A DNA stretch of 64,000 bases, from positions 1 to 64,000 of the forward strand of contig NZ_JAINFJ010000004.1 in NCBI RefSeq assembly GCF_019966595.1, given 5' to 3'. Shown here piece after piece: positions 8,328 through 51,772 of the stretch. The notes under the pieces were generated by a model. It was given only the letters and a program-made list of their open reading frames with translations. It had not been told where the DNA came from and made no database searches. The stretch is from Oricola indica (GTDB taxonomy: Bacteria; Pseudomonadota; Alphaproteobacteria; Rhizobiales; Rhizobiaceae). Each line of letters starts with the position of its first letter. The first letter of the stretch is position 1. The position numbers were made by a program, and so were the translations under genes.

Positions 8328-10883
8328 TCAGTTCAGCTCAAGCAAGCGCTCGAGATATTCCTTCTCCAGCTGCGGCGACAGCGCGTTGCCGAGACGCCTG
8401 CGGATCGCCTCGAGGATTTCGCGGGCGCGGCGAATGTCGATCTCGTCGGGAATCTCGACCGATTCGCCGAAATCCGGTCCGGCCGAGCGTTGCGGCCGGC
8501 CGAGCGGATCACGGTCGAGCGCGTTGCGACTGCCGCCGGGTTCCGACGCACCAGTACCGCCATCCATCGCCTGCTGCATCTGCTGCATCATGCTGTCGGC
8601 GCCGCGCCGAAGCGCGTCCATCGCCTGGCCCTGGTCGGAAAAGGCCTGCTCGCCCTCGCCCTCGCCAAGCGCCTGTCCGGCTTCGCCCATCTCGCGGCCG
8701 GCCTCGCCGAACTCCTCGCCGGGATTGATGCCCATGCCGCGCAGGCCGTCCATGAACTGCTCCAGCCGCTCGCGCAGCGCCTGCTGGCCGGGCGCGAGCC
8801 CCTGCAGGCCATTTTGGCCCTGTCCCTGCTGGCCTTGCTCGCCGTTTTCGCCCATCTGCTGGTCGCCCTGCTGGCCTTGCTGACCCTGCTGGCCTTCCTG
8901 ACCCTCCTGCCGGGGCTGACCCTGTCCGCGCCGGCTCTGGCGGTAGGTCTCGTTCATCAGTTCCTGCTGCTCGCGCAGGATTTCACCCAGCTCGTTCATC
9001 TGCTGCTGGGCCTGGTTCTGCTGGTCGCCCTGCTGATTGCGGTGCTGGCCCATCTGCAGATTGTTCATCATGTCCTGAAGCTGCGACAGCATCTCCTGCG
9101 CCTGCTCACGCGCGCCGGACTTCGCCAGTTCCTCGATCCGGTCGAGCATGTCCTGCAGGCTCTGCATGTCCATTTCCTGCATGTTTTCCGGCATTTGCTG
9201 CTGGGCCATGTTCGGATTGTTTTCCATCTGCCGCGCCAGTTCGCGCAGATAGTCCTGCATGGCCTCGCGCAACTCGGCCATCAACTGCTCGATCTCCTCG
9301 TCCGACGCGCCGTTTTCGAGCGCTTCCTTGAGCGCCTGCTGCGCCTGGCGCATGCGGCGCTCGGCGTCCGACAGATTGCCGTCCTCGATCGTCCGCGCGA
9401 ATTCCCACAGATAATCGACGACGCCGCGCAACGCTTCGTCGTTTCCGCGCGCTTCGAGAAGCCGCGCCCGGGCGGTCACGAGACCGAGAAAATGGCTCGC
9501 ATCCTTGATCGTCTCCTCCGGCCACAGGGTCAGGACGTCGATCACGTCGACGATGTCGGGAACCGAATTGGCGTCGAGGGCCAGATTGCGCCGCTGCTCG
9601 ATGATGGCGCGGGCGAGCGGATTGGAGAAAGGCCGGCCCGGCAGCACCAGCGTCTTGGTCTCACTGCGGCCGGTCTGTCCGCGATCGTCCTCGGCCTCCA
9701 GCGTCATCGCAACCCGCGCGCCGGCCCATGGATGTTCGCTGAGATCGCGCATCGTCTTGGCCGCGCCGTCTTTCGACGAGCGTCGGGGAAGCGACAGCGG
9801 CAGGTCCGGCGCCTCGTAGAGCGGACGTGCGCCCTCGGCGTCGTCATTGGCCAGTTCGACGATACCGCGCGCCTTGGTGACACGATGGTCGTCCTTGGCG
9901 AAATATTCGAGCGTCATGGTGCCGTTGGCCGCGCGCACCGGGTCACCCGCAAATTCGATCGTCGGCGCATCATCCGGCGAGACGGCAAAGGACCAGTCGC
10001 GTTGCGCATCTTCCGCGCCGCCGGAAATCGACAGCGAGCCGGACTGTTCGAGCGTCACCTCGAAGCGCCGCGACGCCGCGGGCTCCGGACGTCCGTCACC
10101 CGTCGATGTGCCCAGCGGCGTTTGCGGACCCGGCCATGTGACGCTTTCCTGCCCGGTGCCGCCGGCAATGCGCACCACGGCGACACTGCCTTCCGGCACG
10201 GTGAAGTCGCTCCGGGCGGCGTTCTGTTCCGAGGTCAGGAAGATCGGCGCCATGCCCGTATAGGCGGGCGGCGTGACCCAGGCGTCGATACGCGCCGGTA
10301 CGGCCTCCGCGACCTGATGACTGCGGAACGCATCGCCGAGCGACCCGCCGGAATTGCCGTAAGACCATGCGAAGGCCGTCACCAGAAGCAGCGCGACGGC
10401 CGCGCGCAGGGCAAAGGGATCGCGCCGGGGAATGTCGGTGCGGGCGTTCGCGCCTTGAACGCCATTAACGCGTTCGGCCATGCGCCGCTGGTGTTCGCGC
10501 CACAACACGCCGGCGAATGCGTCATCCGAGGTGCCGGACAGCCGGTCGTCCTGCGTGGTGATCGGTGCGTGGGACAGCGCGTTCTCGCGTTCGAGCCGCC
10601 GGTCGATTTCGAGCACGCCAGGCATCCGCATCGAGCGCAGCGGCCAGAGGCTCGCAAGTCCGGCAAGCGCGAAGACGGCAATGAGCCCGAGACGCACCGT
10701 ATCGGGCATGGACCTGAACAGGCCGAACCATGACAGGATCGCGAAGAGCGCGATGACGCCGGCCAAGGGCAAAAGACGCGGCAAGAGGCGCTCGCCGATC
10801 ATGGCGGCGCGGGTTGCCGCGCGGACAAGCCTGAGCCTGCGCGAAAGGTCCTGCGGGGCGGAATGCTTGGTGTCTGGTGCCAT
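8328..10883 (-). CDS. TIGR02302 / DUF4175 family membrane protein with Gln-rich coiled region
   Basis: A protein of about 850 residues matching the alphaproteobacterial TIGR02302 (DUF4175) family. Two membrane spans lie near residues 40-85, with a third hydrophobic segment near 165-185 before a large extracytoplasmic beta-rich part. A helical region follows, and at about residues 560-770 there is a glutamine- and methionine-rich low-complexity stretch (repeats of QQGQQGQQGD type). Function is unknown; an envelope role is inferred from topology. The ATG at 10883, with AGGAG eleven bases upstream, is preferred over a GTG at 10916. It lies 107 bases downstream of lysA on the same strand and is probably the last gene of the argH-lysA group. 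Confidence 0.85.
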   Translation of the reverse strand: MAPDTKHSAPQDLSRRLRLVRAATRAAMIGERLLPRLLPLAGVIALFAILSWFGLFRSMPDTVRLGLIAVFALAGLASLWPLRSMRMPGVLEIDRRLERENALSHAPITTQDDRLSGTSDDAFAGVLWREHQRRMAERVNGVQGANARTDIPRRDPFALRAAVALLLVTAFAWSYGNSGGSLGDAFRSHQVAEAVPARIDAWVTPPAYTGMAPIFLTSEQNAARSDFTVPEGSVAVVRIAGGTGQESVTWPGPQTPLGTSTGDGRPEPAASRRFEVTLEQSGSLSISGGAEDAQRDWSFAVSPDDAPTIEFAGDPVRAANGTMTLEYFAKDDHRVTKARGIVELANDDAEGARPLYEAPDLPLSLPRRSSKDGAAKTMRDLSEHPWAGARVAMTLEAEDDRGQTGRSETKTLVLPGRPFSNPLARAIIEQRRNLALDANSVPDIVDVIDVLTLWPEETIKDASHFLGLVTARARLLEARGNDEALRGVVDYLWEFARTIEDGNLSDAERRMRQAQQALKEALENGASDEEIEQLMAELREAMQDYLRELARQMENNPNMAQQQMPENMQEMDMQSLQDMLDRIEELAKSGAREQAQEMLSQLQDMMNNLQMGQHRNQQGDQQNQAQQQMNELGEILREQQELMNETYRQSRRGQGQPRQEGQEGQQGQQGQQGDQQMGENGEQGQQGQGQNGLQGLAPGQQALRERLEQFMDGLRGMGINPGEEFGEAGREMGEAGQALGEGEGEQAFSDQGQAMDALRRGADSMMQQMQQAMDGGTGASEPGGSRNALDRDPLGRPQRSAGPDFGESVEIPDEIDIRRAREILEAIRRRLGNALSPQLEKEYLERLLELN

Positions 10884-10990
10884 GCGCCTCGTTTCTCCTG
10901 ACCAAAAGAGTAGCACTCTTCATGGCAAAGGCGAGGCCCAATACCCGGTATTGCGATCACACTCTTGTCAGAGCGAACGGGAAATGCGGC

Positions 10991-12256
10991 TCAGAACCAG
11001 TCCGGCACGCTGTCGAGGCCGATCAGCTCCTCGTAGCTCGGGCGCGGCCGGCAAACGTGGAAGTCTCCGCCCTTGACGATCACCTCGGGGACGAGAAGCC
11101 GCGAATTGTAGGTTCCCGCCTGCACCGCGCCATAGGCGCCGGCCGATCCGAAAGCGATCAGATCGTCGGGGGCCAGCTGCGCGATATCACGGTCCTTTGC
11201 GAGGTAATCGCCGGATTCACAGACCGGGCCCACGATATCGGCCGTTATGCGCGTTTCGTCCGCGCCCGGTTCGCGAACCGGGATCATGTCGTGCCATGCC
11301 TCGTAGAGCGTCGGGCGGATGAGGTCGTTCATCGCCGCATCGACGATAACAAAATTCTTCTCCTCCGCCTGCTTCACAAAGATCACTGAGGTGACGAGGA
11401 TTCCCGCATTGCCGGCGATCATCCGCCCCGGCTCGAAGATCGCCTTCACGCCGAGCGGCCGGATATGCTTCTTGACGATCTCGCCATAGGCGGCCGGCAG
11501 CGGCGGCGGCGCATTGTCGTTGCGATACGGAATCCCGAGCCCCCCGCCCATATCGACATGCTCGATCACATGCCCGTCGGCGCGCAGCTGCGCGACCAGG
11601 TCTGTCAGAAGGCGGATCGCGTCATCGAAGGGCTGCAACTGCGTGATCTGGCTGCCGATATGCATGTCGATGCCGGCGACGCGCAGACCCGGCAACTCCC
11701 CGGCTCGGCGATAGACGTCGCGCGCCCGGAGCCAGGAAATGCCGAACTTGTCGCCTTTCTTGCCCGTCGAAATCTTGTGGTGCGTTTTCGCGTCGACATC
11801 GGGGTTGATGCGCAGCGAAACCCGCGCGGTCTTGCCGGCCGCGACGGCCCGCGCCGAAAGCTGCTCCAGCTCGGGCTCCGATTCCACGTTGAAGCAATGG
11901 ATGCCCTCGGCAAGTGCAAAATCCATTTCCCGCGCCGTCTTGCCGACGCCGGAGAACAGGATCTTCTCCGCCGGGATGCCCGCGGCGAGGGCCCGCCGCA
12001 ATTCGCCCTCGGACACCACGTCGGCGCCGGAGCCCAGTTCGGCCAGCGTCCGCAGGACCGCCTGGTTGGAATTGGCCTTCATCGCGTAGCACACCAGCGC
12101 GTCGATATCGCCGAAAGCCTCGGCGAAGACACGGTAGTGACGCTCCAGCGTCGCGGTCGAATAACAATAGAATGGCGTGCCGACAGCCTCCGCGATCAGC
12201 GGAAGGGGCACGTCTTCGGCGTGAAGCACGCCATCGCGATAGTCGAAATGGTTCAC
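10991..12256 (-). CDS. lysA: Diaminopimelate decarboxylase
   Basis: A 421-residue PLP enzyme performing the last step of lysine synthesis, decarboxylation of meso-diaminopimelate. PLP-binding Lys60 is in CYAMKANSN; the HIGSQ motif, the glycine-rich phosphate site DMGGGLGIPY, EPGRMIAGNAG and the catalytic-cysteine segment GPVCESGDYLAKD are all present in order. Length is typical. It sits 28 bases downstream of the small lipoprotein gene and after argH on the same strand, an order I recall in many rhizobia. No internal disruption is seen. Confidence 0.95.
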   Translation of the reverse strand: MNHFDYRDGVLHAEDVPLPLIAEAVGTPFYCYSTATLERHYRVFAEAFGDIDALVCYAMKANSNQAVLRTLAELGSGADVVSEGELRRALAAGIPAEKILFSGVGKTAREMDFALAEGIHCFNVESEPELEQLSARAVAAGKTARVSLRINPDVDAKTHHKISTGKKGDKFGISWLRARDVYRRAGELPGLRVAGIDMHIGSQITQLQPFDDAIRLLTDLVAQLRADGHVIEHVDMGGGLGIPYRNDNAPPPLPAAYGEIVKKHIRPLGVKAIFEPGRMIAGNAGILVTSVIFVKQAEEKNFVIVDAAMNDLIRPTLYEAWHDMIPVREPGADETRITADIVGPVCESGDYLAKDRDIAQLAPDDLIAFGSAGAYGAVQAGTYNSRLLVPEVIVKGGDFHVCRPRPSYEELIGLDSVPDWF

Positions 12257-12284
12257 CGGAAAGCCCTGCTGCGAAGAGGCGAAA

Positions 12285-12458
12285 TCAGATCAGTGGATCG
12301 AGGATGAAGGGACGGTCCTCGGCGGGCGCGTCGGCGGGTTTTTCCTTCTGCGCCGCTGCCGCCGCCGGAGGCAATTCCGGATCGCCCGCACGCCCGCAGG
12401 CGGCTAGCGTCGCGGCGAACGCCGCCAGAAGGAGAATGCGCGTGATGCCGATACCCAT
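12285..12458 (-). CDS. Small lipoprotein (LptM/YifL-like)
   Basis: A 57-residue lipoprotein. From the ATG at 12458 the protein begins with a short signal sequence, GITRILLLAAFAATLAAC, whose lipobox cysteine is followed by GRAGDPELPP; the rest is rich in proline, alanine and charge. Small lipoproteins of this form between argH and lysA are annotated LptM-like. In enterobacteria LptM helps mature the LptD lipopolysaccharide translocon. That role is only an analogy here. A longer reading from 12527 would put a basic stretch before the signal peptide, so I prefer the internal ATG with AAGG about 12 bases upstream. Confidence 0.75.
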   Translation of the reverse strand: MGIGITRILLLAAFAATLAACGRAGDPELPPAAAAAQKEKPADAPAEDRPFILDPLI

Positions 12459-12555
12459 CGTCGTCAACCTTTTCCGCTGTTTCCGGCGCGCGCCGGACCC
12501 GAACAATCGTTTTCCTAGCGCGGCCATGCGTGAATGAACACCCCCGGCGAAACGC

Positions 12556-13968
12556 TCAGCCTTCCTTGTCGAGCTTGCGCCGGTGATAGCGGATCTGGCG
12601 GCCGACTTCCTGCGGTGCCGTGCCGCCGAAGCTCTTGCGGCTCGCCGCGGACTTTTTCACCGTCAGCACGTCGAAAACCGCATCCGTGATGCCGTCATGG
12701 ATCGATTGGAGGTCGTCCAGCGTCAGCCGGTCGAGCCGCACGCCCTTCTCCTCGGCGAGCGCCACAGCCCGCCCCGTGACGTGATGCGCCTCGCGGAAGG
12801 GGATGCCCAGTTCACGCACCAGCCAGTCCGCGAGATCGGTCGCCGTGGAGTAGCCGGACGCCGCGGCCTCGCGCATCGCCTTCTCGTTGACAGCGAGGTC
12901 GGCGACCATGCCGGTCATCGCGGCCAGCGCCAGTTCCAGCGCTTCCGCCGCGTCGAACACGGCTTCCTTGTCTTCCTGCATGTCCTTCGAATAGGCGAGC
13001 GGAAGGCCCTTCATCACCGTCAGAAGAGACACGAGATCGCCATTGATGCGCCCGGTCTTGGCGCGCACCAGCTCGGCGGCGTCGGGATTCTTCTTCTGCG
13101 GCATGATGGACGAGCCGGTCGAGAACGCATCCGACAGCGTGACGAAGCCGAATTGCGGCGTCGACCAGATCACGATTTCCTCGGCGAAGCGCGAAAGATG
13201 CGTAGCGCAGATCGAGGCGGCGGCCATGTATTCCAGCGCGAAATCGCGGTCGGACACCGTGTCGATGGAATTGCGCGTCGGCCCGGCAAAGCCCAGCGCC
13301 TTCGCCGTCTGGTGACGGTCGATGGGAAAGCCCGTGCCGGCCAGCGCCGCCGCGCCGAGCGGACACTCGTTCATGCGTTCGAGACAATCCGCCATCCGCG
13401 ACCTGTCGCGCGAAAACATCTCGACATAGGCCATCAGGTGATGTCCGAAGGTGACCGGCTGCGCCGTCTGGAGATGGGTGAAGCCCGGCATCACGGTTGC
13501 GCGGTGCTCCTCCGCGCGGGTCAGAAGCGTCTCGACAAGGCTCTTGAGAAGCCCGGCCGCCTTTTCGGCCTCGCCGCGCACCCACATGCGAAAATCGAGT
13601 GCGACCTGGTCGTTGCGGGACCGCGCGGTGTGCAACCGCCCGGCCGTCGGACCGATCAGCTCCGACAGGCGGGCCTCGATATTCATGTGGATGTCTTCGA
13701 GCTTGCGCGAGAAGGCGAAGTCGCCGGCCTCGATCTCTGACCGGATCGTGTTCAGGCCGTGAACGATCTTGTCGCGATCCTCCGCCGAAATTATGTGACA
13801 GTCGGCGAGCATGGTGGCATGCGCGATCGATCCGTCGATATCCTGGGCGTAGAGCTTGCGGTCGTAACCGATGGAGGCGTTGATCTCCTCCATGATTGCC
13901 GCCGGGCCGGACGCGAAACGTCCGCCCCACATCTGATTAGAAGCGCTTTTTTTGGTATCGTCGGACAT
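12556..13968 (-). CDS. argH: Argininosuccinate lyase
   Basis: A 470-residue ArgH, the last step of arginine synthesis (argininosuccinate to arginine and fumarate). Recognisable blocks are [12 protein letters not shown] at the start, [44 protein letters not shown], and the fumarase-superfamily signature [12 protein letters not shown] carrying the catalytic serine loop. The open frame extends 163 codons upstream, but these are antisense to tlpA and without similarity, so the ATG at 13968 is used. That ATG and the tlpA ATG lie on the same CATG palindrome, so there is no intergenic space between the two divergent genes. Confidence 0.95.
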
Positions 13969-14656
13969 GAACGAAAAAATCCCGGAAACGAGTGACGGAA
14001 AGTCGGCGGAGAGCCGTCCCTCCATCCTGAAAATCGCGGCGATCGCGGTCGCGATAGGGGCGATCGCCGGCGCGGGCGGGATATACGCCACCGGAATGCT
14101 CTCTGGCAATGCCGGCGGGACCGAGACGGCCTGCGCCGCCGCGATCGAGACCGGCGCGTCGCTGAAACCTCTCCTGACCGGCGAGGTCGCGGCGATGGCG
14201 CCGCGAACGCAGGCAAACGATCTTTCCGGACTGACCTTCAATGACGGAGACGGCAACGCGATCACGCTCGCCGATACGGGCGGCAAGCCCCGCCTCGTCA
14301 ATCTCTGGGCGACGTGGTGCGCGCCATGCCGCGCCGAGATGCCGGCGCTCGACGCATTGCAGGCCGAGAAGGGCGGCGACGATTTCGAGGTCGTGGCGAT
14401 ATCCGTCGACGGCGGTGACGACGCCAAGCCCCGCGCCTTCTTCGAGGAGATCGGCATCGAGACGCTCGGTTTCTATCACGATCCGACAATCGGGGCCTTT
14501 AACACGATGAAAAAGGAAGGCCTCGCCTTCGGATTGCCGGTCACGGTGCTGGTCGATTCGCAAAATTGCGTCGTCGCCAACATGAACGGCCCGGCTGAAT
14601 GGGCGAGCGAAGACGCCTATCGCCTGATCGACGCTGTTAAGGCAAAAAACGAATGA
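13967..14656 (+). CDS. tlpA: TlpA-family membrane-anchored thiol:disulfide oxidoreductase
   Basis: A 229-residue protein: cytoplasmic N-terminus, one membrane anchor ([22 protein letters not shown]), then a periplasmic thioredoxin-like domain with the redox motif WCAPC (Cys118-Cys121) and the cis-proline segment GLPVTVLVD. TlpA proteins reduce periplasmic disulfides, for example in cytochrome oxidase or cytochrome c maturation; the substrate here is unknown. One extra cysteine (ETACAAA) follows the anchor. The ATG at 13967 shares CATG with the argH start; a GTG at 13952 is an alternative. Placement opposite argH is an arrangement I recall in rhizobia. Confidence 0.9.
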
Positions 14657-14799
14657 ACAGGCCGCGCCGAACCGCCAAAGGTTAACAGCACGCGACACAA
14701 GCACCCCGTCTCTCCGCGATGAATCGTTAAAGTTGTGTCCATCGCGAGAGCGGACACGCTATATGTGGTGAGAACAAAACGGGAAATCATCGGAAACAG

Positions 14800-14841
14800 C
14801 GATTCGTCGCCGATTCGTTCCGCCTCGGTTCTGTTTCTTAA
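14800..14841 (+). repeat. 42-base module, copy 1 (two GATTCGT iterons, GTTCTG, TTAA)
   Basis: The first 22 bases are identical to those at 15073. They contain two GATTCGT iterons 11 bases apart, followed by GTTCTG at offset 28 and TTAA at offset 38. Confidence 0.75.
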
Positions 14842-14876
14842 CGGAAACTTACCGGGAGGTTAACCCGCATGGTTAA
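14838..14876. promoter_or_regulatory. Ladder of CtrA-like half-sites
   Basis: TTAA (14838), TTAC (14849) and TTAA (14860) are spaced by exactly seven bases each, the CtrA box spacing, giving two overlapping 7-of-8 matches to TTAA-N7-TTAA. A further TTAA follows at 14873 after nine bases. GGTTAAC occurs twice, at 14858 and 14871. CtrA binding is inferred from the motif only. Confidence 0.4.
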
Positions 14877-15072
14877 CAAGACATGAAGAAAGTCGATTAA
14901 ATTCAATTTGTTAACGAGCATCGCAATTGGCGGCACAGGGGCTTTCGCCAAGCGTTAACAAACCGGACCGGAACGCCTCGAATGACTCACGCAATGATTC
15001 ACGTACTGGTAGGCACCAGCCACTGCGCCACCACATCTGGTAGGGAACAAAGCTGCAACCTATGAGAGTCAC

Positions 15073-15114
15073 CGATTCGTCGCCGATTCGTTCCAGACTC
15101 GTTCTGGTTGTTAA
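15073..15114 (+). repeat. 42-base module, copy 2
   Basis: The first 22 bases are identical to the copy at 14800, with GTTCTG and TTAA at the same offsets. Here a third GANTCGT iteron (GACTCGT at 15096) is intact, so three iterons sit in 11-base phase. The two copies lie 273 bases apart in the same orientation. Confidence 0.75.
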
Positions 15115-15263
15115 TTTCCACAACCCTGGAGCGGTAGAACCCATGCATTTTCGCGTGTTTTTCGCCCTGTAATTGCCGAAACGGCGTGCTAAACGCTGTG
15201 TCAGCTCTCCGGGACGCCCATCAGCGCCGGAATCCCCCGGACTCGAACTTCAAGACAGAGTCA

Positions 15264-18200
15264 ATGCCTTCCGATTTTTTTGACGGCCATACGGTCAAGG
15301 CGGTACTCGGCCCCACCAATACCGGCAAGACCCACTACGCCATCGAGCGCATGGTCGCCCATTCGAGCGGCGTCATCGGCCTGCCGTTGCGCCTGCTCGC
15401 GCGCGAGGTCTATGGCCGCGTCGCCCAGAAGGTCGGGACGGACCAGGTCGCGCTGATCACCGGCGAGGAAAAGATCGTGCCGCCCAAGGCGCGCTACTCG
15501 GTCTGCACCGTCGAGGCGATGCCGTCGCAAACCGACGTGGCCTTCGTCGCCATCGACGAGGTTCAGCTGGCCGGCGATCTCGAACGGGGTCACATTTTCA
15601 CCGACCGCATCCTCAACCTGCGCGGCCGCGAGGAGACGCTGTTGCTCGGGGCGGGAACCATGACCGGCATCCTGCGCGCCCTGATACCCGGCATCGATAT
15701 CGTCTCGCGCCCGCGCCTGTCTCACCTCGCCTATGCGGGATCGAAGAAGATCACGCGTCTTCCCCGCCGTTCGGCGATCGTCGCCTTCTCCGCCGACGAG
15801 GTCTACGCCATCGCCGAACTGATCCGCCGCCAGCGCGGCGGCGCGGCGGTCGTGATGGGTGCGCTGAGCCCGCGCACCCGCAACGCCCAGGTCGAACTCT
15901 ACCAGAACGGCGACGTGGAATACCTCGTCGCCACCGACGCCATCGGCATGGGCCTCAACCTGGATGTCGACCATGTCGCCTTCGCGCAATTGCGCAAATT
16001 CGACGGCTATGCGTTTCGCGACCTGAACCCCGCCGAGATGGGCCAGATCGCCGGCCGCGCCGGCCGCCACATGCGCGACGGCACATTCGGCGTGTCGGGC
16101 CACGCCCACCCGCTCGACGACGAGACGGTGAAGCGCATCGAGGGCCACGAATTCGACCCCGTGAAGGTCCTGCAGTGGCGCTCGCGCAATCTGGACTTCG
16201 GGTCGATCGCCGATTTGCGCCGCTCGCTGGAAGTGCCGCCGGAGACACCGGGCCTGACCAAGGCGCTGCCGGCGGTCGACCAGCGGGCGCTCGACTTCCT
16301 GTCGCGCGACGCCACCGTCGCCGACACGTGCCGGGGCCGCGACGAGGTCTCGCTTTTGTGGGACGCCTGCGTCCTGCCCGATTATCGCAAGATCGCGCCG
16401 GCCCAGCATGCCGATATCATTTCCCAGATTTTCCTCGATCTGGTCCGGCGCGGCCACGTCGACGAGGACTATATGGCCGAGCAGGTGCTTCGCGCCGACC
16501 GCGCCGACGGCGAGATCGACACGCTGTCGGCCCGAATCGCGCAAATCCGCACCTGGACCTATGTCGCCAACAGGCCCGGATGGCTTGCCGATCCGCTACA
16601 CTGGCAGGAAAAGACGCGCGCCATCGAGGACAAGCTGTCCGACGCGTTGCATGACAGGTTGACGAAACGCTTCGTAGACCGCAGGACATCCGTGCTCATG
16701 AAGCGGTTGCGAGAGAACGTGACAATGGAAGCAGAAATAAGCCCTAGCGGCGATGTAACTGTCGAAGGCCATCATATCGGCCAATTGGACGGATTCCGTT
16801 TTTCAGCGGACAAATCCGCCGAGGGCGAGGATGCGAAGGCCGTCAAGGCAGCCGCCGCGAAGGCGCTCGCAACCGAGTTCGAGGCGCGCGCCGATCGCTT
16901 TGCAGCGGCGGGCAATTCCGATTTCGCCCTCGGTTCCGATGGCGTGCTGCGCTGGCTTGGCCAGCCGGTCGGAACGCTGACGGCGGGCGAGGAATGGCTG
17001 AAGCCCCGCCTCGTCTTGCTGGCCGACGAACAATTGACCGGCCCGGCGCGCGACAAGGTCGCCGCCCGCGCCGAGCGTTTCGTCGGACATCACATCGAGA
17101 CGCATCTGAAGCCGCTGGTCGATCTCGGCCGCGCTGACGAACTGTCCGGGATCGCGCGCGGCATCGGGTTCCGTCTGATCGAGAATTACGGCATCGTTCC
17201 GCGCCGCGAGATCGCCGACGAGATCAAATCGCTCGACCAGGACGGCCGCGCCGCGCTGCGCCGCTATGGCGCGCGTTTCGGATTCTACCACATCTTCGTT
17301 CCGTCCCTCGTCAAACCGGCGCCCGCCGGCCTTCTGACCCTGCTCTGGGCCTTGCAGAACGACGGAAAGGACAAGCCGGGCTACGGCGATGTCGTGCAGC
17401 AGCTGGCGACAGGCCGCACGTCGCTCGTGCCCGACCCGTCCTATGACACCGCCTTCTACAAGCTCGCCGGCTACCGGCATCTGGGATCACGCGCGGTGCG
17501 TGTCGATATCCTCGAGCGGCTGGCCGACCTGATCCGCCCGGCGCTGCAATGGCGCGAAGGCTCCGGGACGCTGCCCGAAGGCGCGGCCGGCGGCGGCCGC
17601 TTCTTCGTCACTCCGGCGATGATGTCGATCCTCGGCGCGACGGCGGAGGACATGGAAGCCGTGCTCGGCAGCCTCGGCTACCGCCACGACAAGGTGGAAC
17701 CGGCGGAATTCGATGAAAAGCTCGCGGCACTGAAAGCCGCCAACGCGCCCGCCGCACCGGAGACACCGACCGAGGAGCCAGCGGCCGCATCCGCCGAAGC
17801 CCAACCGGAGACGCCGGAACAAGCCGAAGCGCCCGCGCAAGAGGACCGTGCGGAAGCGACGACAGCCGAAGCCACACCGGAAACACCCGCCCCCGAAGCC
17901 GACGCAACCGAGCCGACCCCGGAACCCGTGGCGCAGGAAGCCCCGGCACCGGCCGAGGTCGTGGAGACACCCGCCGAACAACCGGTGGAACAGGCCGCAG
18001 AACCGGAAGAAGCCGAGGAGCCGAAGCCGGTCATGGTCTGGTACCAGGTGCGCGGCGACCGCAACCGGCGCGGCCAGCGCCCGCAAGGCCAGCGGCCCGA
18101 CGGCGACCGGAGGGGCAAGGGCGGTCACGGCAAGCCGAAAGGCAAGCGCGATCATGGCCACAAGGGCAAGCCGAAAGGCGACGTGGCCGCGTCTGCCCGC

Positions 18201-18281
18201 CCGCCGCGCCGCGAAAAGCCGATGGATCCGGATTCACCCTTCGCGAAACTCGCCGCCCTGAAGGACCAGATGAAGAAATGA
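15264..18281 (+). CDS. Suv3-like DExH-box RNA helicase with acidic and basic C-terminal tail
   Basis: A protein of about 1005 residues. Walker A is GPTNTGKT at residues 16-23, the DExH-type box is AIDEVQLAGDLERGH near residue 98, and helicase motif VI is QIAGRAGRHMRDG, followed by the EFDPVKVLQWRSR segment typical of mitochondrial Suv3-type helicases. A long C-terminal domain ends in a low-complexity tail: about residues 826-919 are rich in Pro, Glu and Ala, then about 930-980 are rich in Gly, Arg, Lys and Gln. The tail suggests RNA or RNase binding. I chose the ATG at 15264, just before the conserved start; a GTG at 15186 is possible. It begins the helicase-S4-fdxA-carD block known from rhizobia. 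Confidence 0.9.
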   Translation: MPSDFFDGHTVKAVLGPTNTGKTHYAIERMVAHSSGVIGLPLRLLAREVYGRVAQKVGTDQVALITGEEKIVPPKARYSVCTVEAMPSQTDVAFVAIDEVQLAGDLERGHIFTDRILNLRGREETLLLGAGTMTGILRALIPGIDIVSRPRLSHLAYAGSKKITRLPRRSAIVAFSADEVYAIAELIRRQRGGAAVVMGALSPRTRNAQVELYQNGDVEYLVATDAIGMGLNLDVDHVAFAQLRKFDGYAFRDLNPAEMGQIAGRAGRHMRDGTFGVSGHAHPLDDETVKRIEGHEFDPVKVLQWRSRNLDFGSIADLRRSLEVPPETPGLTKALPAVDQRALDFLSRDATVADTCRGRDEVSLLWDACVLPDYRKIAPAQHADIISQIFLDLVRRGHVDEDYMAEQVLRADRADGEIDTLSARIAQIRTWTYVANRPGWLADPLHWQEKTRAIEDKLSDALHDRLTKRFVDRRTSVLMKRLRENVTMEAEISPSGDVTVEGHHIGQLDGFRFSADKSAEGEDAKAVKAAAAKALATEFEARADRFAAAGNSDFALGSDGVLRWLGQPVGTLTAGEEWLKPRLVLLADEQLTGPARDKVAARAERFVGHHIETHLKPLVDLGRADELSGIARGIGFRLIENYGIVPRREIADEIKSLDQDGRAALRRYGARFGFYHIFVPSLVKPAPAGLLTLLWALQNDGKDKPGYGDVVQQLATGRTSLVPDPSYDTAFYKLAGYRHLGSRAVRVDILERLADLIRPALQWREGSGTLPEGAAGGGRFFVTPAMMSILGATAEDMEAVLGSLGYRHDKVEPAEFDEKLAALKAANAPAAPETPTEEPAAASAEAQPETPEQAEAPAQEDRAEATTAEATPETPAPEADATEPTPEPVAQEAPAPAEVVETPAEQPVEQAAEPEEAEEPKPVMVWYQVRGDRNRRGQRPQGQRPDGDRRGKGGHGKPKGKRDHGHKGKPKGDVAASARPPRREKPMDPDSPFAKLAALKDQMKK

Positions 18282-51114: not shown

Positions 51115-51225
51115 CGCGCGGTCTCCATGTCCGGTGCCCGTTGGACTCGGGCCTTGTCAGGCTTATAATAGTGTGTGCGCCGAGGCGCATTTTCAACGGC
51201 AAAGCGGCATGGCCGGACGGATAGG

Positions 51226-51477
51226 ATGAGCGACGACATGGACAAGGACGGAGCGGACGAAACGGCCGTCGGCGAAACCGGCTCCGAATCCGCGCCGGCG
51301 AAGACACCGGACATGCTGCCACCGGCGGCACGTCGCGCACTCGCCGAGGCCGAGGCGCGCCGCGCCGAAATGGCCGCCGCCGAGGAAAAGCGCCGCCGCG
51401 AAATCGGCGGGCGTGGCGGCAAGGATCCGGCCCGATACGGGGACTGGGAGGTCAAGGGCATAGCCGTCGACTTCTGA
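51226..51477 (+). CDS. DUF1674 / SdhAF4-like protein
   Basis: An 83-residue soluble protein with an acidic, low-complexity N-terminus and an Ala/Glu/Arg-rich helix (RRALAEAEARRAEMAAAEEKRRR). It ends in the family-defining EIGGRGGKDPARYGDWEVKG followed by IAVDF. DUF1674 includes mitochondrial SDHAF4, which binds and protects flavinylated SdhA during succinate dehydrogenase assembly; the bacterial role is inferred. The ATG at 51226 is chosen over an earlier start that adds a basic non-family segment. No sdh genes lie nearby. Confidence 0.88.
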   Translation: MSDDMDKDGADETAVGETGSESAPAKTPDMLPPAARRALAEAEARRAEMAAAEEKRRREIGGRGGKDPARYGDWEVKGIAVDF

Positions 51478-51772
51478 GCGCCGTTTGCGGACTCTGTCCC
51501 GGAACGGGAGACCGGGCGCCGATTCCGGTGCCCACAGGGATCCGATAAAGCAAGCGATTCCAACGAATTCCGGCCAATGATTTCGCGGTTCTAAACGCTG
51601 TCACGCGAATTCGGGCTTATGCGTTAACCCCGCGTTTAGCGCGTTTGATAATCGATTCCCTCAAGCCCGCCGAAATTAGCCATCCGAAAACGAAGTGCAC
51701 CCTATTTTGCGCGCCAAGAGGCATGGAGTCCGCCCGGCGGACACCGAAACCAAGCCTAGCAGGAGATTGGCC
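51478..51772 (+). promoter_or_regulatory. Upstream region of the TadG-like gene with GANTC sites and a CtrA-like box
   Basis: The 295-base gap holds four GANTC sites (51490, 51521, 51556, 51654) and one TTAA-N7-TTTA match (51624-51638), 7 of 8 to the CtrA box. No ORF was seen. Control by CtrA or CcrM is an inference from motifs. Confidence 0.4.

Follow-up and report, generated by a model that had tools for sequence, protein, structure and literature searches.

The locus lies in a 64-kb window (the whole stretch of DNA that was analysed) and comprises the gap between the stop codon of tlpA, at 14656, and the ATG of a gene for a Suv3-like RNA helicase, at 15264. The gene tlpA was the upstream neighbour in the genus and stood beside the module described below only in loci of that genus; the usual partner of the module is the helicase gene, for which 116 of 121 genomes have an ortholog. 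The helicase is of the mgpS type. SMc03877 (mgpS, Sinorhizobium meliloti) is among the RNA helicases listed in PMC4941405, and the helicase of the gap was equated with it on the basis of the name and the helicase call, not of an alignment. In S. meliloti Ak57 and in a Rhizobium the helicase was followed by genes for an S4 protein and a ferredoxin (fdxA), a CarD-family gene and a sigma-32 gene; the former carried a full module and a partial one, the latter three modules.

Twelve GANTC sites had been reported for the gap in the initial annotation and all of them were found, at 14721, 14801, 14812, 14984, 14996, 15066, 15074, 15085, 15096, 15230, 15240 and 15258. Their density was, as had also been claimed, far above expectation: there are 12 sites in 542 bases, while 5,000 dinucleotide-shuffled versions of the gap had 2.6 on average, at most 10 and never 12, and about 0.9 would be expected from the genome rate. 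This rate comes from 464 kb, or 9.1% of the 5.09-Mb genome, made up of the window and twenty 20-kb stretches on five contigs, in which 764 sites (1.65 per kb) were counted. The richest 542-base stretch of the sample started at 14721 and the runner-up held seven sites, and no equal stretch was present in this 9.1% of the genome. GANTC is under-represented in the window overall, with 125 sites observed versus 380 expected from shuffles, 12 of the 125 being within the 542 bases. A weaker second group, of 7 sites in 587 bases, was observed at 51144–51730. Two GANTC separated by six bases (GANTC-N6-GANTC) occur at 18 places genome-wide, three of them inside the gap, and relatives have as many as 17 GANTC in 700 bp.

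The gap was found to hold a DNA module of about 90 bp that has been duplicated in tandem; the two copies have diverged and are offset by 273 bp. The features of the locus are detailed in Table 1.

Table 1. Features of the tlpA–helicase gap and of its flanking genes (positions in the window).
Feature	Position	Strand	Basis or remark
tlpA, upstream neighbour in the genus	13967..14656	+	NF047696
Suv3-like RNA helicase gene (mgpS-type), usual downstream partner	15264..18281	+	PF22527, synteny
Tandem duplication	14772..15114	+	copies 14772-14841 / 15045-15114, 73% identical
Further duplicated pair	14673-14687 / 14946-14960		same 273-bp offset
Module A (distal copy)	14757..14843	+	profile R1, E 4.1e-18, own genome
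Module B (proximal copy)	15028..15115	+	profile R1, E 1.5e-19, own genome
Core heptamer CGATTCG (YGATTCG), module A	14800..14806	+	GANTC at 14801
Core heptamer CGATTCG, module B	15073..15079	+	GANTC at 15074
GANTC pair at 11-bp spacing, module A	14801..14816	+	
Four GANTC, module B	15066..15100	+	15066, 15074, 15085, 15096; last three form an 11-bp tandem repeat
GANTC, 80 bp ahead of core A	14721..14725	+	conserved in 6/6 genus genomes
GANTC, 78 bp ahead of core B	14996..15000	+	site at -82..-74 in 43/65 proximal modules
GANTC not conserved in the genus	14984..14988	+	
GANTC trio	15230..15262	+	15230 not conserved; 15240 and 15258 conserved in 6/6; middle base of 15240 varies
-10-like box CTATAT, module A (putative promoter)	14759..14764	+	
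-10-like box CCACAT, module B (putative)	15031..15036	+	
GAAC-N7-GAAA direct repeat, module A	14772..14786	+	
GAAC-N7-CAAC direct repeat, module B	15045..15059	+	
GTTC-N7-GTTC, module A	14817..14831	+	both half-sites in 7/35 distal copies of relatives
GTTC-N7-GTTC, module B	15090..15104	+	both half-sites in 42/44 proximal copies
Scattered GTTAA/TTAAC words	14681..15114	+	13 overlapping matches vs 1.1 expected

In the anchored copies the parts of the module follow one another in a constant order: C.A.AT.T.G; GTGAACAAA, with GAA eleven bases past GAAC; about ten variable bases; gTCAgYGATTCG; (T/C)GTTCC; more variable bases; GTTC in the proximal copy; and TTAA at a near-constant distance. The GAAC and GTTC repeats face each other around the core, in 11-bp steps, in most copies. 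Within the own family one further 11-mer, and in many cases two, comes after the core (GATTCGTCGCC, GATTCGTTCCA, GACTCGTTC), and these repeated 11-mers are the source of the 11-base phase. The phase pointed out in the initial annotation was present between 14801 and 14812 and along 15074, 15085 and 15096, but the other neighbour spacings within the groups were 8, 10, 12 and 18, and it belongs to the tandem 11-mer, not to GANTC itself. The third phased GANTC is regarded as secondary, because it was kept in just 22 of the 44 proximal copies and the GTTC-N7-GTTC enclosing it in 42. The copies used for the module order and for the half-site and YGAKTCK counts were chosen by likeness to a 20-base core, and conservation inside this core is thus by construction. 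To reduce redundancy, five own-genus genomes were left out of the half-site counts (44 proximal and 35 distal copies), the word counts in 105 upstream regions, the YGAKTCK counts and the counts on 113 modules.

The number of modules ahead of the helicase varies, and some genera have more than two, with three in L054, L082 and L381 and four in L072. Downstream of module B and ahead of the helicase ATG, a block at about 15153–15180 (around TTTTCGCCCTGTAATTGCC) is for the most part conserved across the genus. In the 105 related upstream regions GTTAAC was found 119 times versus 9.5 expected and TTAAC 373 times versus 87. These words look like a further set of binding words and may be CtrA half-sites; the CtrA-type pattern TTAA-N7-TTAA was found 5 times versus 0.7 expected, confined to three of the 105 loci.

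In six genomes of the genus, whose identity to the window is 61–69% along 560 bases, 10 of the 12 GANTC sites were invariant, whereas of 543 control positions, to which the same four-of-five mask was applied, 84 were; the conservation of site positions in close relatives, on which the initial annotation had made its proposal depend, was thus observed. It extended over both parts of the gap: inside the modules 6/6 GANTC were invariant versus 59/169 controls, and outside them 4/6 versus 25/374. Two of the ten conserved sites keep GANTC despite a change of the middle base. Over the 105 upstream loci GANTC was counted 608 times versus 363 expected.

The base preceding GATTCG was a pyrimidine in all 131 anchored copies (73 T, 58 C), a set anchored on GATTCG, GTTC at +16 and GA(A/C)C near -29, from which four own-genus genomes were left out against redundancy. 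GATTC was present at the core in 52 aligned copies, picked from the profile matches as 50 from outside the family and two from G010, with other weak and family matches excluded; both sets were found partly via the core itself.

A DNA search of 61 genomes returned parts of the element in 27, and the same Suv3-like helicase was downstream in all the loci returned except L034, which has a match of 33 bases only and no helicase in the DNA stretch examined. The profile R1, built from sequence only on 75 copies, all of the own family, was then compared with the DNA upstream of the helicase in the order. Upstream DNA was counted for 110 of the 116 genomes with the helicase. At E≤1e-5 the profile matched 80 of the 110 loci (73/100 and 7/10), with one more at 1.9e-5: 52 of 68 in the own family and 28 of 42 outside it, where no copy had contributed to the profile. 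At this threshold 16 of the 68 family loci and 14 of the 42 others gave no module ahead of the helicase. Two loci added later, L209 and L210, both have modules; five genomes without an upstream module (L211–L215) had none in longer stretches around the helicase either.

In 41 whole genomes, scanned with R1 at E≤1e-5 under stricter filters by which weak matches were lost, the matches in genomes with the helicase lay within about 1 kb upstream of it, one to three per genome. The own genome gave two matches at this threshold, both in the gap, and none elsewhere. A dispersed regulatory site was rejected, as no such match was located away from the helicase in the 41 genomes, except in G010. The exact proximal core was also present in named records of Mesorhizobium, Nitratireductor, Aquamicrobium, Aminobacter, Chelativorans and others; among the 80 stretches listed of 91 matched, it was at most 700 bp upstream of the helicase and on the same strand in 78, and that piece of DNA was missing from the other two. 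A mobile element or phage site was also rejected, with no exact core-pattern match in viral contigs and no query match in phages. The plasmid collection gave a single matching record, a 489-kb replicon with the whole helicase locus.

In a class-wide draw of 115 genomes R1 matched nine at E≤0.001. Two of these belong to the order, one of them being the own genome, and the other seven do not. In six of these seven the helicase was downstream of the module, about 900 bp away in G124 (E 1.8e-4). In G174, also outside the order, the module lies directly ahead of a different open reading frame, an arrangement that is possible for a promoter; the upstream gene adjoining the module, there and in three of the other six genomes, is presumably acyl-CoA dehydrogenase-like. 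In G010, a reduced genome of 2.0 Mb in which the helicase was not found, there are two modules, 10.7 kb apart and on opposite strands, and no long open reading frame starts downstream of them on their strand. One module copy of G010 stands alongside a group of features at about 9790–13750 and 13900–14913 of L208 (G010:C12), where a CRISPR-like repeat array adjoins what we take to be a protein with an RxxxxH (HEPN-type) motif, possibly a type VI system, and an Abi-like protein. Judged by these comparisons of sequence, the element is an ancient, real, tandem piece of cis-regulatory DNA common to many related bacteria.

The gap had been proposed to be either a methylation-sensitive control region or an origin-like element. 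The second part of the proposal did not hold. In all 12 genomes tested parS-like sites marked the origin region and the locus lay some 46 to 802 kb away from them, the GC skew had no lasting sign change at the gap within the window, and in G062 (20 sampled stretches) the skew was noisy, took a positive turn near parS and was unchanged across the module. A chromosomal origin, oriC, was rejected on the parS distance and the skew. A related alternative is a stand-alone nucleoprotein site near the origin, serving replication timing or chromosome organisation, with the helicase as a mere neighbour. It would account for the single locus per scanned genome having the helicase, for the two modules of G010 and for a distance from parS that, in the same 12 genomes, equals some 1 to 16% of the length of the chromosome or main contig. 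The word TGTGGATAA was also counted 7 times in the 105 upstream regions versus 0.1 expected, besides the excess of GTTAAC already given. This alternative is nevertheless unlikely: the element keeps its place and strand upstream of the helicase in nearly all of the listed loci, the skew does not change at the module, and the distance from the origin could merely reflect conserved gene order. The word TGTGGATAA, which is DnaA-box-like and confined to 7 of the 105 loci, was observed just upstream of module A in L086, L059 and L076.

The first part of the proposal was retained: the gap is a conserved and probably methylation-sensitive control region. In the best-supported reading, held with moderate confidence, it is predicted to consist of tandem CcrM/GcrA-responsive promoter modules for the mgpS-type helicase gene. 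Each module would be a putative promoter, with the transcript directed toward the helicase and starting just after the C.A.AT box, so that the GANTC core and the repeats would sit just downstream of the start. The consensus of the rhizobial -10 box is CTATAT. This word is present in module A, and 72 of 113 modules have C.A.AT at the equivalent position. Since the -35 is weak, with a long spacer to the -10-like box, and a sigma-70 promoter scan gave no consensus hits, these promoters are ones that we infer. A core downstream of the start would also be an unusual place for an activator.

The GANTC sites would be methylated by CcrM late in the cell cycle and become hemimethylated on passage of the fork. 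GcrA, which favours methylated YGAKTCK, would read the hemimethylation at the core and so set the output of the two promoters, and a second protein may bind the 11-bp GAAC/GTTC repeats that face each other around the core. We infer the methylation, the hemimethylation and the reading by GcrA from the motif and because the genomes carry gcrA and a CcrM-type domain. The gene gcrA was detected in 120 of 121 genomes and the RAMA domain, which we take to be the mark of CcrM, in 119, the own genome having both; as they are near-universal, their presence or absence relative to the module is uninformative on the link.

CcrM on its own tolerates any middle base and any flank of GANTC. The fixed YGATTCG core of the module matches the form that GcrA reportedly prefers: YGAKTCK/TGATTCG has been described as the extended motif of GcrA-activated sites, although the GcrA of Brevundimonas was found not to prefer it (PMC7987155). 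On either strand, 307 of the 608 GANTC of the 105 upstream regions fit YGAKTCK; the gap taken by itself (5 of 12) has no clear excess over the remainder of the window (33 of 113).

The core could instead belong to the site of another protein that binds 11-bp direct repeats, for example an OmpR-type response regulator, as the main reader of the element, and not to GcrA. The facing half-sites at 11-bp steps in most copies suit such a binder, as does the variation of the second core GATTC outside the family. We regard it as rather doubtful, given that the GANTC sites outside the modules are conserved too, that two conserved sites hold GANTC while the middle base changes and that no candidate protein was put forward. 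About equally tentative is an extension of the methylation-based reading, in which a tandem dyad-like array, ancient and alphaproteobacterial, would sense the passage of the fork near the origin by means of hemimethylated YGATTCG cores and the protein on the 11-bp repeats.

The repeats themselves, GTTC-N7-GTTC and GAAC-N7-GAA, could be LexA (SOS) boxes, from which the 11-bp phase would follow, with GANTC incidental. GTTC-N7-GTTC is the alphaproteobacterial LexA motif (PMC3323433), it is better kept in the proximal modules than the GANTC it encloses, and the best site of the gap ranks by score among the highest 7e-5 of positions across 200 kb of the own genome. A matrix was made from the lexA-promoter boxes of relatives, using 23 of 26 tabulated lexA loci (three were left out, one of them without a box). 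These 23 boxes score 17.6 to 32.7 bits, compared with 8.6 bits for the best site of the gap and medians of 3.4 and 4.9 bits for the boxes of the modules, and the lowest lexA-box score was reached by 2 of 113 modules at the first repeat and 2 of 113 at the second. The second GTTC is mostly missing from the distal copy, the exact pattern is found 102 + 68 times in the genome, and the conserved GANTC outside the modules would be left unexplained. A LexA operator was rejected on the matrix scores and is held to be quite improbable.

A structured RNA, either tandem small RNAs or an RNA leader, was also considered. There is a -10-like box ahead of each conserved block, no long open reading frame starts downstream of the G010 copies on their strand, and a terminator scan marked a hairpin with a T-rich tail in module B, at 15093–15107; the kilobase has three sites of this kind, with 1.9 expected. 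No Rfam family scored above its gathering threshold, and RNAalifold gave six pairs, none with a compensatory change. In the 131 copies the most variable pair of the GAAC/GTTC stem was formed in 56, versus 62.6 with shuffled partners; two neighbouring pairs were slightly above the shuffles (112 versus 109.2 and 119 versus 116.6, values that 23 and 12 of the 300 shuffles attained), and the remaining pairs of the stem had no clear excess. With no Rfam match above threshold and no convincing covariation, a small RNA or RNA leader was rejected as very improbable.

If the promoter reading is true, the element would be a rare fixed point in a GcrA/CcrM network otherwise described as rewired (PMC7987155), the control of an RNA helicase, and with it of RNA turnover, would be tied to the cell cycle, and a short, well-defined DNA would be at hand for studying how hemimethylation is read. 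Under the array reading, what would be coupled to the replication cycle is the RNA helicase or, in some genomes, other genes or none, and the element would be a conserved, hard-wired target of the otherwise rewired GcrA network. The conserved 11-bp repeat offers a handle on a further DNA-binding protein. No description of the element was present in the passages available from the literature searched, including PMC3323433, PMC5172544, PMC11514494, PMC8725594, PMC7987155, PMC3667746, PMC2877005, PMC4941405 and PMC9855851, and the main text of PMC5172544 mentions neither helicase nor rpoH2.

Among known systems, the MucR-shielded, hypomethylated promoters have GANTC where a regulator binds (PMC5172544), as is predicted for the present element. 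With the alphaproteobacterial LexA box it shares, in the proximal module, the half-sites and their spacing, but it scores far below the boxes of lexA promoters. The GANTC-rich control regions of repABC also have an excess of GANTC, sensed via CcrM/GcrA (PMC11514494), but no rep genes adjoin the present element. The CcrM/GcrA promoters of Caulobacter (mipZ, ctrA P1; PMC3667746) also have GANTC upstream of the gene, in the extended YGAKTCK form (PMC7987155), and gcrA and the CcrM-type RAMA domain are present here as well. The element differs from them in having at least two copies of a module of about 90 bp, with extra conserved repeats, ahead of an RNA helicase. Furthermore, GcrA/CcrM targets are described as rewired between close relatives (PMC7987155), whereas this module is conserved across the order and in seven genomes outside it.
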